In this document: in pieces, positions 2,059-63,284 of the stretch | Position numbering within the stretch: the stretch's first letter is position 1 | Layout of the letters: each line of letters opens with the position of its first letter | Assembly: GCF_026210795.1 (NCBI RefSeq) | Contig: NC_089456.1 | Span: forward strand, 1,676,501-1,740,500 | From: Rhizophagus irregularis | Lineage: Eukaryota; Glomeromycota; Glomeromycetes; Glomerales; Glomeraceae | Length of the DNA: 64,000 nucleotides | Direction of reading: 5' to 3' | Position numbers and translations under genes: made by a program | The notes under the pieces: model-generated | The model's database searches: none | What the model saw: only the letters and a program-made list of their open reading frames with translations | Told to the model about the DNA's origin: nothing

Positions 2059-2092
2059 TTAGGCCACTCCAATTAACAATTATGTTTAACAA
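2059..2092 (+). repeat. Left terminal inverted repeat
   Basis: 34-bp arm pairing with 6286-6319 at 31 of 34 positions. It ends in TGTTTAACAA and is followed by a poly-C tract. Confidence 0.75.
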
Positions 2093-2444
2093 AATCCCCC
2101 CCCCTCAAAAATTTACATTTTATATAGATACTAGAAAAATGCAAAGTAAATATATTCCCCCCCCCGAATATTCAGTTTTTAAGTATAAATATTAATATTA
2201 AATTTTTTCACTATAAAATAAATATAAAAGTTTGATAAATTGATAAATTCACATGATCGCTAATGCATATCAATATTCGGAACATTTTTTATCCTTTATG
2301 CAATGTTGTGTTACCTGTTAAAGTAATATTACTGGTTCTTTGTTCGCAGATTTTTTTTTCTTTCTTCGCTCAAGTTCTTTGTTTTCGTTGTTATTTCTTT
2401 AAATAAACACGTACCTTTTTGAGTATAAAATTTCGTGTAAAATC

Positions 2445-5400
2445 ATGAGATTATACCTGCTAGTTTCTGTATATCAAAACGGGAAACAAATTGTCAAATC
2501 TTCAGCAATAAGTATTGAACCCCCTGGACTTTTATCTGATCTTTTAAAGTTGGCTCTTTCTACTAATGATATACCAAACGCGAATATATCAGTTGACTTT
2601 CAAAAAGATAATTCAAAAGATTGGCATATAATATTAAAAGGAATTCAAGAAAACTTAGAAATATTAATTTTTTTAAAGGCTACACATATTAGATTCATAT
2701 GGAATGATGATTATGATGATATCAATAATTCTCAAGCAGAAATTCACAAAAATGCCTTTAATATTTTAATGAGTAATGCTACAAATATTCATCTTCCTCT
2801 AGCACAAGGTTTAACCACCCGAAATAACCTTTTATATAATCACGTTATTGATCTTTTAAGAATCCAAAAACTTGGGTGGTTTGGGAACGCTCACACAACT
2901 TCTGGGGTACAGTTTGTATCCCGTTTGAGTAACCTTATCTGGTATATTGATCCACATCGCAGCAAGTTTATTCAACGATCATATCATTTTCCAAAATTTA
3001 TAGAAGAATTACCAGAATATAAAGCAAGTTCATCTTATAATCAATACTACAATAATTCACATCATAAAAAAATAGAAATTCAAGCAAAAACTTTGAAACG
3101 TCATGTAGAAGCTCTAGAAAAATCATTAATTCAACCGTGGGCAAGTGATAAAAAATGGGAACAATTTATCGATGAAGTTATTCAATTATGTGCGACATCA
3201 AAAAAGTATGTAGAATATTTAGATAATGTAAATAATAGGATGCGCATTATTCATAGCAGTAGTATACCTATACGAAATGGGATTGATCACATAAAAGTAC
3301 TATTAGATATTAATAAAACTTCATCAATGAGTAATAAATATACCGATATTATTAATTTAATGCAAGATAAGGCTGAGTATGATCCTATCTGCATTGACGA
3401 TCTTATTCCACACAATGTTTTTCAAGCTGCATATTTGGAAGGAATGGAACTTCCATTTAATATTACATTATATCGTTACTATAGTGGGAATTATATTGGT
3501 ACTTTAAATTGGATTTGGAAAAGACCAGATACCGTTGAGTTATTTGATAAAACTAAAGAGTCACAATCTTTACTAAAAGCGCACAAGTCATTACCAAAAT
3601 ACAGTACACGGCAAATGAGAAAAAATGTGATTAATAAAGTAAGTTAAACTTTTTAAGTAAATCTTAACAAAATGTAATGCTTAAAATTTTTTTATATTGT
3701 ATAGTATTCACTTTATACACGATTGTCACCTGCTATATTATGTACACTATATCAAGATCTTACTGGAAATGCGATAAGCAATTCAAATTTGATATCTCAA
3801 GAAGTACAAGAACGCATAAAATTGATGTATGAAACTCAAGATCCAAATATTGTATTTGATTTACGAAAAAATGGAGGATTTAAAGGAACTAAATTTGATG
3901 AATTTTGGAACGAAATGGATGCATATTTTAATGAAGTAAGTAATTTAATTAATAATCCAATTTAATATTAAAAGTATTAATATGAATATTTTGATTTTAT
4001 TTAAAGATTGTTTTAGCAGTACATGATCAACGACATACCTCAAATTTGTATATGCCAGTTGCAATATCAATTCAAGAACTACGTGAAAGTATTATAGAAC
4101 GCCTAAAAGCTAAGCATGATGAAAAAAAATTTTCAACAATTTCAATTCCAAGCAGTGAGTGGATTAGACTCCAATTTTGGCCGAAAAACATCTATACAAA
4201 AACTGCTATACAATATTCTGGTCGATTTAACATTTCTTACAAAGTGCAAAGTAGACTTCTCCAAAAATCTCATCCTGATGCACATTATTGTGCTGCATTG
4301 TTTCGTTATACAAGGCTTTTTGTTATCAAATTTCGAAATTTCACCTGCTTTATATCTGCAGATGACAAACATAAAGTTCCAATCGGAGAAATAGTTGAAA
4401 CATCAACAGGAGTTCGCAATAAAGCTACATTAGCATTTGCTGATATGGAGTTAACATCATGTGATCATGATTTTACAAAACTTTCAATAACACCATCAGT
4501 TTCATTATTATGTAATATTCCTAAAGATATCAGCGAAAGTTTCTATCAAGGGCAAGTATATGTATCCTATAAGGACTCTGTTTTTCAACCTAGCTCAGCA
4601 CTTAGGCATTCTGCTGAATGGTTAAAGTGTTTACGTGAAAAATATACTATTTTGCCCGAAATGCTAGTTATTTATACTGATGGTGGCGCTGACCATCAAA
4701 CTACATTTGGTTCTGTTCAACTTGCAATGATTTGTCTGTTTTTGGAAGGAGATTTTGATTTTTAGCAGCAGTTCGAACAGCACCATATCATTCATGGTCA
4801 AATCCTGCAGAACGTATAATGTCAATTATAAATCTTGGATTACAAGGTATAGCCTTAAAGAGAAGTGATATGAGTTCTGACTCTGAGAAAGTTTTTAAAA
4901 ATTTGGGAACAATGGAAGAAATTCAAAATGCAGCATTATACAATCAAACTTTAAGCGAGGAAATGAAAATAGCTATCAAAGATACTCAAGAAATTTTACA
5001 AAATAGAACTACCCGATTGAAATTACATAATCAGAAATTTAAGTGTATTGACCCAGCTACTTACAAAGAAATTAATAATTTATTTGATGTAAGTATTTTG
5101 ATTTGTATTTACATGGATATATGAGCAATACGTGCTTAATTTTGCTATTTTATTGGGTAAAAATATAGATTTTAAAAAAGGTTGATCCTACCGTTACTCA
5201 AAATAATACTTCAAAAAATAAACTTCGTACTTGTGTTGATTTACAAGAATTTATTAAATCTCATTGTTTAGTTTGAGAATATTCATTCCAGGTATGATTT
5301 TACATTATAGATTATTTATTTTCTTTGAAATTATTACTTTTACTTATATTGGCTATTTTAAGATCAAAAAGTGCGGAAAAAATGAATGTGTTATTTGTGA

Positions 5401-6067
5401 TCCTATTCGATTACCACAGGAGATTTTTAATCAATTACATTTTATGCCAGACCCACAAATTTCAAGTGGTATGGTAATTTTATATTTTTTAACAATTTTG
5501 GTTTTTCTTATTTATCAAAATTTAATTTAGATCCCGATCACTATCAAGATTTCAATTCACTATACGGACGTAATACTACTGAAATTGACCTTCCAAGTAA
5601 AAAAAATAACCTAGTATGTCAAGAGCTTGCACCAGATGGAATGTTAGTTGCTGCAAGGGTTCGTGATTTTGCTCTTTGTACATCTTGCACAAAATTACGC
5701 TGCATCTTCAGTAAATATGTATTAAGAGAATCCGATAGTGAAATATTGCAAACAGCTATGGAAACATTTGCATATATATACATGTGGTTCGCCTATTGTT
5801 CCAGAAAATCATCCTTTATATAATAAGGTGTTTGTTAGAATGAATTTGGCTTGTGATTCACCAATTGAGCAGACTTATTATTCATGTAGAATTGAACATT
5901 CACAAGTTTGTTACTATTGTGGTGAGGAGGATAATCTTATCAACCCATCACCAGAAGTTTTATCCCGATTTAGAACAGTATATCCTTTATGCGAGGTTTG
6001 TCAAAAAAATGGTGTAACTTTTTTTACAAAAGGTAAACTTCAAATGAAAAAAAAGCAACGTGTATAA
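2445..6067 (+). pseudogene. DDE-like transposase with C-terminal zinc region, damaged
   Basis: Exons read by eye: 2445-3638, 3705-3935, 4007-5088 (frameshifted), 5181-5291, 5363-5468 and 5531-6067 (frameshifted), separated by short GT-AG introns. Candidate RNase H-fold acidic residues are ADDKHKVPIGE, then IYTDGGADHQTTF, then SNPAERIMS, a D-D-E order. The C-terminal part is cysteine-rich: CGKNECVICD, then CTSC, then CYYCGEEDN, then CEVC, probably zinc-binding. From memory, similar uncharacterised proteins occur in sponges and cnidarians as well as AM fungi; this was not checked. Lesions: one base missing at about 4763 between the second acidic motif and the glutamate, TGA at 5274-5276 where arginine is likely, and a frameshift at about 5776 in an AT repeat. 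ATG 2445 follows a TATAAAA at 2424. The damage is light, so the copy is probably young. Confidence 0.7.
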
Positions 6068-6285
6068 TTGAAAATAATACTAAAATATAAAATAAAGAAT
6101 AGTTACTTTTTTACATTTAAAAAAAAATATAAAATCCCCTCTTATTTTAAAAGTTTTTAATATTGTAAAAAAAATTAATATAATAAATACTCCCCCCTCA
6201 ATTTTTACGCTCAATAATACTGTAAAAAAAATCTGTAATTTTTTTTTTTTGACCCCACCCCCCCTTTTTTTTTTAGAGAAGATTC

Positions 6286-6319
6286 TTGTTAAACATAATT
6301 GTTTATTGGAACGGCCTAA
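6286..6319 (-). repeat. Right terminal inverted repeat
   Basis: Mirror of 2059-2092. The poly-C and poly-T tracts at 6245-6275 lie directly inside it. Confidence 0.75.
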
Positions 6320-6364
6320 TTGGTGTAACTTGACGTAACTATATGCAAATCTTATGATCAACTA

Positions 6365-6514
6365 TGCCAAAACTACAGAAAAACCTATTATAGAGGTTTT
6401 GGCATGTTTTGGCAGTTTCGCAATTTTGACAGATTTCAGCATTTCAGCATTTCGGCACTATATAAGAGATTTCACCTTTCAGCATTAGGCCAAACAGGTT
6501 TCGGCAAGCAACCT
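6365..6514. repeat. Partial AGGTTGC-family MITE
   Basis: It ends in GGCAAGCAACCT followed by TA. It shares the wording of the other copies (gttttggcagtttcgc, cagcatttcggcac) at 14982-15221, 39413-39836 and 40522-40764. The left arm is not recognisable. Confidence 0.55.
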
Positions 6515-6525
6515 TATTCTGGAGC

Positions 6526-6685
6526 TCGCGAGCCAGTTCATAGCTCGTGAGCCAGCTTGAACGAGCTGTATCAAAGCTCGGCTCAAATGAGCCAAGCCAA
6601 ATTGATTACGAGCCGCAGCTCAGCTCAGCTCGATATACCTAGCTAGCTCGTGAGCTGGCTCAAGCTAGACTGGCTCGTGCAGAGC
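6526..6685. repeat. GC-richer inverted repeat, likely MITE
   Basis: The ends read GAGCCAGT at about 6530 and ACTGGCTC at about 6675. Repeated AGCTCGTGAGCC words inside can fold on themselves. No clear target duplication. Confidence 0.5.
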
Positions 6686-6689
6686 ACTA

Positions 6690-7122
6690 CGCCAAATATA
6701 TATAAAAAAATTCAGTCTTTAGTTACAACTAATGGAAAAAATTATAATGTTAAAAAGGAATATATAGATAATAATAATGTAGTCACAAATTTGGGTGGTT
6801 ATGAATTTTTACCAATTAATATTCATATTAATAATATTATAACATCTTTTAATATGTTTCATTTTGAAAATATTTATGGAAAAAATAATTGAAGAAAAGC
6901 TCTATCTTTACATATATTTTTGAACATTTTAAAAGAATATCAGACACAAGTGAAATTAATTTGTTTATTAAAGTATGTAATGGTTGTGAATATAATATTG
7001 GTCAAATAGAGGGTAAATGTATAATAAAATCAATAAAAACTGAAATATATGAAGTGAGATATAAAAGACTTATTAAATGGAAGGGATATAAGGCATATCT
7101 TCTAAAGGAAGCACAACATAAT
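6690..7122 (+). pseudogene. LINE linker fragment before RNase H
   Basis: Two overlapping frames (about 6690-6892, then 6889-7122) give a linker-like peptide with VCNGCEYN, comparable to the CNGC stretch ahead of RNase H in similar LINEs as I remember them. One frameshift near 6890. It is cut by the insertion at 7125. Confidence 0.5.
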
Positions 7123-7801: not shown

Positions 7802-8956
7802 TGAAACCCTTTATATTACTCTTCATATGATAATTATCAATTACGTTTTGATGAAAATAGTTTAGATATTATTGAAAAATATATAGATTTATCATTAGAT
7901 AAACAGAAATTATTTGATTCAAGAAAAATTTTATATGATTCAAATGTTAAAGATTTTGTTTGCTATACAGATGGTTCAATTAAAGATATTACCAAAGAAT
8001 ATGTATCAGCTACTTTTGGAACAACTTTTTATAATTTGTCCTTGCAAAAAATTTTGGAATTAATATCATCTTATAATAATTGGATTTCATCAACACGTGC
8101 AGAAATTTTTGCTTTATTAATTACTTTGCTAATAGCACCTTCTAATAGTAATTTAACAGTTTATACAGATAGTGCTAGCGTTATTAGTAATTTTGAAAAA
8201 TTTAAATTTTATAATTTTACTTTAGTTACTAGACAAATTTTTAAAATTAGTAATAACAACATTCTTTGGAAAATAATTATGGATATTATTAAAGAAAATA
8301 ATTTATCTGTTAATATATTTAAAGTTAATGCTCATACAGATGATTCTTTAAATAATTATGTCAACAATATTGTTTCTTTGGCACATAATGATCAAAATTT
8401 AGGAATTAATTTAAATTATAATAATTTTTATGATCTTCCTTGGATTCCCAAATGGAATGGCATAGTTATAGAAAAATCTTTAAGAAAGTTAATTACATTA
8501 ACAACCAATACGAAAAATTTGGAAAGGTTTTTAAATTTAAATAGAAATGATAAGTATAGAAAATGTGAAATAGATTGGTCGATTTTTTTTAATAATTTTT
8601 TGGGAGAAAAACAAAAATTATACACTGATTTCAAAGAATTAAAAATTAGAAGACGCAAAATTCAGTTGATGATTGAAGAACTTCCTTGCATTGAACAAAT
8701 TAAAAGAACTTTATTTTCATTATATAAAGAAAGATTTTGTCCTATGTGTGAAGAGGATGAAGAAGATTTTAATCATATCTGGTTTTGTGAAGAAAGACGA
8801 GAGGATATGGATGATTTAATTTCAGGAGTACAAAATTGGCTTCTTTTAGAAATTAATAAAATTTTAGATCCTATTAATCATATTACTCTTGAACATATTA
8901 AAAATCTCAATGATATTTGGAAACTTGAAGTATCAGAGGATCACATACTTTCATAG
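7802..8956 (+). pseudogene. LINE RNase H and zinc-knuckle region
   Basis: Open from just after a TGA at about 7799 to 8956. RNase H motifs in order are VCYTDGSI (Asp), STRAEIFALL (Glu), TVYTDSAS (Asp) and KVNAHTDDSLNN, where a KVKAH-type end motif is usual. A C2HC-like knuckle follows: CPMCEEDEEDFNHIWFC. The frame is lost near 8940 and the C-terminus continues in another frame. It is fairly well preserved, so insertion may be recent relative to the gypsy relic to the right. Confidence 0.7.
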
Positions 8957-30915: not shown

Positions 30916-31927
30916 TCAATCGATTGTTTGATATTGTCTTCGATTTATACTATTACGTAGAATATAACCACCTGCTAAAGTTATCATACCAAGAAAGTAT
31001 GATACTATAACTAAAATAAAATTACTAGTTGTTCCCGAATCATCATCATTGATTATTGTTGGATCTTCACCCTAAATTTTAAAAAAAAGTATGAGAAAAT
31101 CTAAAAGTATGTGTATAAATATAATAAACTTAAATGAATTCTCACCGAATAATCCTTTAATACTTCTTCGTGAGATAGACGAAAGTTATAATAACGAAAA
31201 TTACTATTATTTTTTTTTTTGAAAATAAGTAATAATTAATAACTGTTAATTTGATTGATTAGATTTCACATATACTTTATTACCTAATTAGTCCAAAAAA
31301 TCCATCGTTACTAGCGGAATGGGGGTTTTTTCCAATATATAACGGCTCATCATTGAATATGATAAATTCATTCTGGATTATTCTGAGACTGTAAGATCCA
31401 ACCCATTTACCATCTATATACAAATTCATTCGTTTATCAGGGTCTGAAATTGTATAAGCTATATGGTACCATTGAGTAATTCGGAATTCATAATCATCCA
31501 ACTCAAATCCAGTTCTAATGTTACTAGTAGTCGAACACCTTACTAACGGAACTGGTTCAGTTGCTCTTAGCCAGAGTGAAGGTGTTTGATTGTCAGATGT
31601 GTTACCTAAATGTAAAAATAAGTATAATTTAAGATAATAATAATACTTAATAATCATATATAAAATACCTTTATAAAAAATGGTATGGTAGTAGCCGTTG
31701 TATTCATGTTTTATAATATTTATTTTTAGCGTAATTGACAACTCGTTTTTTACAACTGGTAAGTCAGTATGGTTAAAAACTTGATAATATTTAGGTAAGA
31801 AAATAATTTGTTCTGTTATTAATTCACGATATTCTCTTTGACTCTGTTCCTGACAGAAAACTGACAATGAATTGATGATGATTATTATCATTAAATAATG
31901 GAAATAATAATAATAATCCATTATCAT
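30916..31927 (-). CDS. Secreted/membrane LamG-domain protein, 4 exons
   Basis: Exons by eye: 31927-31669, 31605-31284, 31203-31146, 31071-30916. Total 795 nt, 264 residues, phases consistent. The N-terminus is a signal-like hydrophobic stretch (YLMIIIIINSLSVFCQ). The centre fits a concanavalin A/laminin G-like beta sandwich: SLWLRATEPVPLVRC, QWYHIAYTISDPDKRMNLYI, GKWVGSY, EPLYIGKNP, FFGLISNFRYYNFRLSHEEV. WYHIAYT, YIDGK and FRYYNFRLSHEEV are characteristic of LamG-type sequences. A C-terminal membrane segment (NFILVIVSYFLGMITLAGGY) precedes a short basic tail. So it is probably a single-pass surface or secretory-pathway protein with an extracellular ligand- or glycan-binding domain; the ligand is unknown. 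Introns are 63-80 bp, GT-AG. Confidence 0.8.
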
Positions 31928-61074: not shown

Positions 61075-63284
61075 TTAACCGAGGAAGCTATCTAATCCTT
61101 CATATAAAGCATTTGAATGAATAGAATTAATAAATTCGTCAATATGCTTCCTTTTATGTCTTTGTAAACTACTTGCGGTAGTAAATGCTTTTGTACATCC
61201 TAGTTCATCACATAGATAAGGTTTTTCTCCTGTATGAGACCTCTCATGATCCCTTAAATGACCCGAATGAGTAAATTTTCTCCCACATTCGGGAAAACTA
61301 CAAACCATTAATTTATTTCCGGTATGTAATCTCTGATGAGTTCTTAAATCATTCATTCTACTAAAAGTTCTGCCGCATCTTGGTTCTTCACATTTCCATG
61401 GTTTCTCATCTAAATGTGTGTATTTATGAGTTTGTAAACTTTTGATTGTTGCGAATGCTTTATTACATCCAACTTCATCACAAGCATAAATTTTCTCCAA
61501 ATTATGATTTTTCTTGTGTCTGAATAAAACATCCGACCTTTTAAATGTTTTACCACATCCAGGCAAATCACAAACGAACGGTTTATCCTCAGAATGTGTA
61601 CTCTTATGTTTTTTTAAATTTCCCAATAAAGCAAATGCTTTATTACATCCATCTACTTCACAAACGAATGGTTTCTCATCTGAATGAGTACGTTCGTGAA
61701 TTTGTAAATTACCTAATTGACTAAATTTCTTGCCACATTCTTTACAATCATAAGGCCTTTCTCCTGTATGAACTCTACGATGATTTTGTAAATGGCTCAT
61801 TTTAGAAAACTTCTTGTTACACTCAGCAAATTCACATTTGAAATACAATTCTCCCGTATGTTTACGCTTATGAGTTTTTAAATCGTCAAGACGCTTGAAT
61901 GCTTTGTTACATCCAGGTTCATTACATTCATAAGGTTTATCCTCTGAATGAATACATTTATGAACTTGTAAACTACTTGATGTATAAAATGATTTTTCAC
62001 ATCCGGGTTCATCACAAACATAAGGTCTTTCTCCATTATGACTTCTTTCATGTACTTTTAATCCGTGTAAAGTAGCATAAGACTTTTCGCATCCATCTTC
62101 ATTGCATTTAAATGGCCTTTCACCAGTATGTGAACGTTGATGAATCACTAAATTATTTTCTGTACTAAATGATTTATCGCATCCAGGTTCATCACATACG
62201 TAAGGTTTCTCTCCATGATAATTTCGCTCATGTGCTTTTAACCCATGTAACGTAGTATAAGTCTTTGTACATCCATCTTCATTGCATTTAAATGGCCTTT
62301 CAGTATGTGAACGTTGATGAGTTGCTAAATTATCTTCTGTATCAGATGATTTATCACATTCAGGTTCATCGCACCTATGTTCCTTATTAGATATATTAAA
62401 ATTATTATGAGTGTTTTTTATTCTTTTTGCAGGATGATTGAACTCAGGTTTATTTTCATCAATTTCTTGTTCTTCATCTTCATCCATTGTATTTAACGTA
62501 TCCATTGTATCTTCTTGAGTTTCCATTTCTCTTACAGTAATATCCGAAATATTATCATCATAATCTTCAATACGATCTATTTCCATATCTTCAGTTAAAT
62601 AATTAGGCAAATTCATTTTTCTATTCACCAAATCATCAATCTTTTGTAACGTGTTTTGTAATTTTTCTTCTTCATTTTCAGCTTGCAAGGTTTGTTCTAA
62701 TCTTAAGAGAGGTCTTGTGATAAATGTTGGATAAACGTCAAAATTTTCAGCATTTTCGGCGAAATTAATATGATTAACTTCATTTTTATTTCTTAGGAGT
62801 CTATTTTCTGAGGATGAAAAATCTTGAGAAGAATTAAAAGTATTATCTGAATTAATGATGTTACTAACAAACGAATCAATCTGACCTAATAAATTCAATC
62901 CTGAAAAATTTTTTTCATCATCAATTATACGATTTTTTTCTTTAGATGAACTATCTAACCGATTCATTATACTATCTCTAGAATTATTTGTATTTGGAAC
63001 ATTATCAGAACCTTTTCTTTTATTATTTTCAAGAGAATAACCTGAGATATTAATATTAGAACCTATCGAAGTATGAACTATATTTTTATTCCTCGAACGA
63101 CCACCTTTTTTTTTATTGTTTTTTTTAAAAAAAAAAATGATAAAAAAAAATGATAAAAATAAAAAAAAAGAATAAGCAATTATTTTACTAATTACATATT
63201 GTTATTACTTGTTTCAAATAAATAGGAGAAAGAGCGAAAAAAAAAAAGAATTTAGAACGTTATATTTTTGATACCTGACGCCAT
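61075..63284 (-). CDS. C2H2 zinc finger protein with 14 fingers
   Basis: Two exons: 63284-63275 (ATG GCG TCA G) and 63104-61075, giving 679 residues. The tiny first exon is inferred because the frame is open upstream of the ATG at 62967 and joins in phase to GRSRNKN. Residues 1-245 are polar and acidic (DTMDTLNTMDEDEEQEIDEN), possibly an activation region. The C-terminal part has 14 C2H2 units in tandem from CDEPECDKSSD to HKRKH near the end. Most have CX4C spacing as in TFIIIA-type fingers; one (CKECGKKFSQLGNLQIHERT) has CX2C. Unit 1 is weak. Linkers are TGERPF/HSDEKP-like. It is probably a sequence-specific DNA-binding (or 5S-RNA-binding) regulator; the target is unknown. TFIIIA itself has nine fingers, so this is not simply TFIIIA. 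Confidence 0.85.

Follow-up and report, generated by a model that had tools for sequence, protein, structure and literature searches.

The stretch of Rhizophagus irregularis DNA analyzed here, a window of 64,000 nucleotides (C28:1676501-1740500) in a host genome that was scanned over 146.7 Mb in 32 contigs, contains at window positions 2062-6316 a DNA transposon of 4,255 bp that is very likely an inactivated cut-and-paste element of autonomous type from the ISAzo13/Zator group. It is bounded by terminal inverted repeats (TIRs), and its relatives in the same genome, which fall into subfamilies A, B and C with the window copy in A, are flanked by 3-bp duplications of the target sequence TWA (TTA or TAA). 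Element-free counterparts exist for insertion sites of the family and near-identical copies are dispersed over different sites. The enclosed gene encodes a predicted transposase with a conserved D-D-E core, and sequence comparisons identify subfamily C as homologous to ISAzo13.

An earlier note on this DNA, made from the sequence alone, had described inverted repeats of 34 bp around a multi-exon gene. These repeats (2059-2092 and 6286-6319, 34 nt, 91% complementary) do enclose the gene and stand above chance in a self-comparison of the window (E 5e-7). They can now be refined to a TIR proper of 31 bp (28 of 31 positions identical) plus three bases of target DNA at the outer side of each arm, and it is because of these outer bases that we limit the element to 2062-6316. 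A copy that is 96.6% identical, L009, matches the window copy from within a few bases of one end to within a few bases of the other. A 30-base end consensus, allowing up to three mismatches, has 11 matches in the 146.7 Mb, while the reversed control has none. Runs of six to nine C residues lie just inside both ends (2096-2104, 2157-2165, 6192-6197 and 6258-6264); several other family copies likewise carry C or G runs close to their TIRs, and it is possible that a shared signal is involved.

Target triplets were compared for 22 elements, i.e., 20 of the 28 fetched loci, the window copy and a composite on contig C18 that holds L011, while L010, L020-L024 and L027 stand outside this table with one or both ends absent from the fetched stretch. 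Other copies with ends of this kind and a target duplication of constant length, which the earlier note had suggested looking for, do exist: the duplication is 3 bp long, and an identical TTA or TAA triplet is found on both sides of 21 of the 22 elements. Identity of the flanks at 4 bp is found in none of the 22. The combination of a TWA duplication with GG-type ends is common to subfamilies A, B and C. Copies L013 and L012 are inserted in tandem arrays, and their flanks, when joined by a single TAA, match element-free units across the junction with 91 and 87% identity, respectively, over 183 columns. Copies L015, L016 and L017 share 98.9-99.8% identity along 4.2 kb up to the TIRs and differ in their flanks; near-identity at different sites implies that the family moved recently.

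Some arrangements in the family deserve separate mention. The arrays hosting L013 and L012 are AT-rich and their units also match one another in inverted orientation. At C18:4114584-4142711 (L065, L066, L070-L072 and L011), a distance of 28.1 kb separates the two ends of an A copy, each of which is flanked by TTA. The idea of a giant cargo-carrying element was set aside and a nested insertion is preferred here, because the element is present in order, in seven pieces split by other DNA. Two right-type ends in opposite orientation are located about 16 kb apart on contig C16 (C16:2301657-2301686 and C16:2317944-2317973; L067 and L068). They have much of the outer flank in common, one of them lacks about 10 bases before GGCC, and the pair may have arisen by inverted duplication or as a product of aberrant transposition.

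Exon borders of the transposase gene in the window copy (Table 1) were deduced from reading frames and relatives rather than from RNA. The frames accommodate four GT..AG introns (3639-3704, 3936-4006, 5089-5168 and 5292-5362), a fifth is likely near 5470-5530, and the exon pieces add up to about 1,090 codons. The catalytic codons start at 4361 (D), 4679 (D) and 4810 (E); both D codons lie inside the window row of the ISAzo13 alignment, and the E, which lies past the end of that row, was placed by the frame that follows the break. Repeated CxxC motifs characterize the C-terminal tail, the same motifs occur in the open frame of L015, and L028 contains a related Cys-rich open reading frame (ORF). 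Frames, introns and codon positions are thus in line with the multi-exon gene, the D-D-E pattern and the cysteine-rich C-terminus described previously. The damage, given in the earlier note as two frameshifts and one TGA, is likewise confirmed: the TGA is located at 5274 in exon 4, and the frame changes in exon 3 (near 4750-4770) and exon 6 (near 5765-5780). The proposal that the enclosed DDE protein is the element's own transposase is upheld by the ends and duplications of its relatives. In a Pfam scan, the gene pieces of the window copy gave no significant match.

Table 1. Features of the transposon copy in the window (window coordinates)
Feature	Position	Strand	Evidence or remark
Left target-site triplet TTA	2059..2061	.	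Table of target-site duplications; the right-hand partner here is TAA
Left terminal inverted repeat, 31 bp	2062..2092	+	Match to L009 starts within a few bases
Two subterminal runs of nine C	2096..2165 (2096-2104, 2157-2165)	+	Similar runs (C or G) close to the ends of several other copies
Exon 1, open over 398 codons; no known domain in this N-terminal part	2445..3638	+	
Exon 2, 77 codons	3705..3935	+	Preceded by GT..AG intron 3639-3704
Exon 3, predicted DDE catalytic core, frame change near 4750-4770	4007..5088	+	Frames and ISAzo13 alignment
Exon 4, in-frame TGA at 5274	5169..5291	+	
Exon 5, Cys-rich tail begins (IKKC..C..C)	5363..5470, 3' border uncertain (5468-5473)	+	Similar stretch in L015
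Exon 6, Cys-rich C-terminal region, frame change near 5765-5780	5531..6067	+	Relatives L015 and L028
Right terminal inverted repeat, 31 bp	6286..6316	-	Paired with left arm
Right target-site triplet TAA	6317..6319	.	Reverse complement of left TTA

A tblastn search with the exon-3 core yields at least 150 protein matches genome-wide, some copies giving several. Among the best-scoring 66 of the 150, 52 cover almost the entire query, and 21 of these 52, the window copy included, are free of stops in the core segment, which says nothing on the intactness of the rest of the copy. The expectation that intact copies occur elsewhere in the genome therefore holds as far as relatives with open core frames are concerned; wholeness beyond the core is not implied. 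By identity to the window copy, the relatives can be roughly sorted into subfamily A (about 46-100%), B (about 40-46%) and C (about 29-36%), each of which forms a supported group in a tree of the fetched copies (98/98, 95/91 and 99/99, respectively; midpoint rooting, with a warning of long branches). The A set comprises 15 of the 20 A rows, L009, L010, L016, L017 and L027 being omitted as broken or near-duplicates, and the tree further omits L012 and L013 (A), L031 (B) and L034 (C), the latter being 99% identical to L033.

TIRs surround the gene in every subfamily, mostly of the form GGCC..TCCAA in A and GGCC..GCAAA in B and with GGG in C; the ends start with GGCC or GGCT in A, with GGCC or GGCG in B and with GGG in C. 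On the protein level, an A seed finds four C proteins in phmmer with E values of 6.5e-18 to 3.4e-24 (in a small ORF set), and in profile-profile alignments with hhalign A and B reach 99.3 and 99.0%, respectively, against C. These sequence comparisons clearly identify A, B and C as homologous. In the long open frame of one B copy (L028:3036-4679), K stands in place of the catalytic E in NPVER.

The connection of the family to ISAzo13 starts from subfamily C. In the Pfam scan, L035 and L036 match PF07592 with E values of 6.6e-5 and 8.7e-4, respectively, and L035 matches the NCBIfam model NF033519 (transpos_ISAzo13) with 2.8e-9; the B protein L029 reaches 0.046 with the ISAzo13 model of NCBIfam. 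In the reverse direction, an ISAzo13 profile finds two of four C proteins below 0.005, the best at 1.6e-6 (E values for a million sequences). When aligned with hhalign to 11 ISAzo13 proteins, C reaches 96.9%, A 79.7%, A and B together 90.5% and all three together 96.4% (E 1.1e-9), whereas five Harbinger and six Tc1-like proteins from the same genome, used as controls, remain at or below 0.5 and 2.3%, respectively. The value for ISAzo13 against Tc1, 26.7%, fits the kinship of Zator/TP36 with IS630 described in PMC7386202. The motifs D.K..[IV]G, HD[FYM], D[GNA]G and P..S..N..E align between the fungal and the ISAzo13 core, and the spacing between the second D and the E is 43 residues in all six fungal proteins measured vs. 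42 in all five of ISAzo13.

Searches beyond the family proteins add the following. PF07592 has 12 matches in the whole genome, all of them under the cut-off, and the best one (E 0.0012) overlaps a tblastn-matched place in the identity range of subfamily C. Plasmids yielded two weak matches (E 0.5 and 8), the better of which, a cyanobacterial protein found from C, is itself a PF07592 protein at 7e-54. A sequence search of PDB with the family profile gave no match up to E 1, and in viral and prokaryote genome contigs no relative was confirmed by tblastn, although the short-pattern scans can miss relatives.

We also examined the ends of bacterial ISAzo13 elements. Seventeen loci were scanned, two of which (L043 and L047) have no clear arms. 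In the register that we set by eye for every bacterial end, identical 3-bp triplets flank 11 of the 15 copies scored, TTA or TAA in nine cases, and the triplets are unlike in L038, L044, L045 and L075. Among the cyanobacterial copies, seven of ten have identical TTA or TAA triplets next to ends such as GGGACTTCCAGAAA, and ends of subfamily C such as GGGGCGTGCCAGAAATC are close in style. Arms were found in five of the seven other bacterial copies, four of them with identical triplets (TAA, TTA, TGA and GGC). It follows that the 3-bp duplication is general, and that TWA is frequent yet not fixed. The bacterial ends start with GGG, GAG, GGT or GGA, and the copies considered here suggest that G-rich ends may be a defining trait of ISAzo13/Zator.

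Several observations weigh against an assignment of the window element to ISAzo13/Zator. Its own triplets are unlike, TTA on the left and TAA on the right, the sole exception among the 22 elements; a substitution or a recombined copy would explain this best. No score of subfamily C reaches the curated cut-off of PF07592 or NF033519, and L033, the third C protein scanned, has no ISAzo13 match in Pfam or NCBIfam. Subfamily A does not match the ISAzo13 models directly, neither A nor B has a significant Pfam match, and in hidden Markov model (HMM) searches the profiles of A and B miss ISAzo13 with best E values of 3.1e3 and 2.5e2, respectively, for a million sequences. A joint profile of A, B and C reaches ISAzo13 at 0.024 and ISAzo13 reaches A at 0.058, while B alone obtains only 33.1% in hhalign against the 11 ISAzo13 proteins. 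As neither A nor B reaches ISAzo13 in a plain HMM search, these two subfamilies are placed there indirectly, by way of C and of profile-profile alignment. Regarding the ends, TWA is shared with Harbinger elements and hence not a specific signature, the bacterial registers were chosen by eye and two of the 11 bacterial duplications (GGC and TGA) are not TWA. The likeness to Zator, consisting of 3-bp duplications and kinship with ISAzo13, is drawn from its published description.

Taken to their limit, such points would set A and B apart as a separate DDE superfamily whose kinship with ISAzo13/Zator is ancient only. The lack of a significant Pfam match, the failure of A and B profiles to hit ISAzo13 directly, the long stem leading to A and B (1.67 changes per column) and the much longer spliced protein with its Cys-rich tail would all agree with this. 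However, phmmer and hhalign make the homology of A and B with C clear, C is in turn homologous to ISAzo13, the TWA duplication and the GG-type ends run through A, B and C, and the convergence criterion of Repbase would tend to merge groups that converge on iteration (PMC4455052), so that we regard a separate superfamily as unlikely. A DDE transposon group of its own, as proposed in the earlier note, is not supported; C connects the family to ISAzo13 (PF07592/NF033519) and hence to Zator. That note had also named, as an argument against its reading, a clear alignment with a named superfamily that has different termini. Kinship with a named superfamily is indeed found through C, but the termini are not clearly different, being G-rich with 3-bp and often TTA or TAA duplications.

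The remaining alternatives fare worse. Duplications of 3 bp at TWA and GG-rich ends are typical of PIF/Harbinger elements, and the fungal family shares both. Its transposase nevertheless shows no relation to theirs in the hhalign comparison with the five Harbinger proteins of the same genome, the Pfam scans detected no DDE_Tnp_4 match in the window copy or in family proteins, and the 42 DDE_Tnp_4 matches of the genome all lie outside the window element and the fetched A, B and C loci, leaving a Harbinger identity with very little probability. Tc1/mariner (IS630) was rejected on the basis of the 3-bp TWA instead of a TA duplication, the lack of a DDE_3 match and the hhalign values of at most 2.3%. 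Kolobok produces 4-bp TTAA, Sola 4-bp and KDZ 8-bp duplications; none of the 22 elements matches at 4 or 8 bp, and these three were rejected as well, with their transposases compared via the Pfam scans. It could finally be argued from the many copies, some with long open frames, that we are dealing with a host gene family next to which the inverted repeats are incidental. Copy identity that stops at the TIRs, constant target duplications, empty sites and near-identical copies at different sites refute this for the copies examined, and we give it next to no credence.

For an element of the ISAzo13/Zator group, the following course of transposition is the most probable one. The spliced DDE transposase is predicted to bind the GGCC-ended inverted repeats of about 31 bp, possibly via its N-terminal or its Cys-rich region, and to excise the element in a cut-and-paste reaction. 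The element would then be joined to a TWA triplet (TTA or TAA) with a 3-bp stagger, the repair of which would leave the triplet on either side and account for its presence at both flanks.

Elsewhere in the window, the right flank of the element (6355-6690) is rich in short repeats that by eye are first TTTCAGCATTTC-like and then GAGCTCGTGAGCC-like. An ORF at 8036-8956 (+) has a weak RNase H match (E 1.1e-5) and is possibly a retroelement fragment. Further ORFs are located at 31280-31927 (-), with a match to Laminin_G_3 (concanavalin-like; E 6.6e-9), and at 61075-62967 (-), where 630 amino acids include about ten C2H2 zinc fingers.

Eukaryotic Zator has been described as resembling ISAzo13, with 3-bp duplications made by both (PMC10045372), and the same pairing appears in PMC5718144; Zator is furthermore related to TP36 transposases, and Zator/TP36 are kin to IS630 (PMC7386202). 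We infer that the fungal elements belong to the same superfamily as Zator, A and B through C. Before a recent curation, about two thirds of the transposable elements of R. irregularis had not been classified, and the curation itself left many repeats aside; a Zator HMM was used in it, and section 10 of the paper does not mention Zator among the families found (PMC11075540). In our literature search, with most subscription papers outside its reach, no title or abstract opening describes the family. Subfamilies A and B look like divergent lineages in sequence comparisons and may deserve a lineage name of their own. It is a real possibility, albeit one that we would not yet favor, that they constitute an undescribed major lineage of eukaryotic transposons, ranking at least as a sister group to Zator, among the unclassified repeats of Glomeromycotina. 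With the exact terminal and target signature and the superfamily assignment at hand, the family could be annotated at once.

Compared with bacterial ISAzo13, the fungal elements share the aligned motifs of the D-D-E core, including [DV/T]HD[FYM], as well as 3-bp duplications that are often TTA or TAA and ends that start with G. They differ in size (3.1-5.9 kb, leaving the nested copy aside, vs. 1.3-1.8 kb in bacteria), in the spacing between the first and the second D (105-111 vs. 85-92 residues) and, in subfamilies A and B, in a spliced gene with additional N-terminal and Cys-rich C-terminal regions. The fungal family, with its far larger transposase, adds a further lineage to the link between bacterial and eukaryotic transposons provided by ISAzo13 and Zator.

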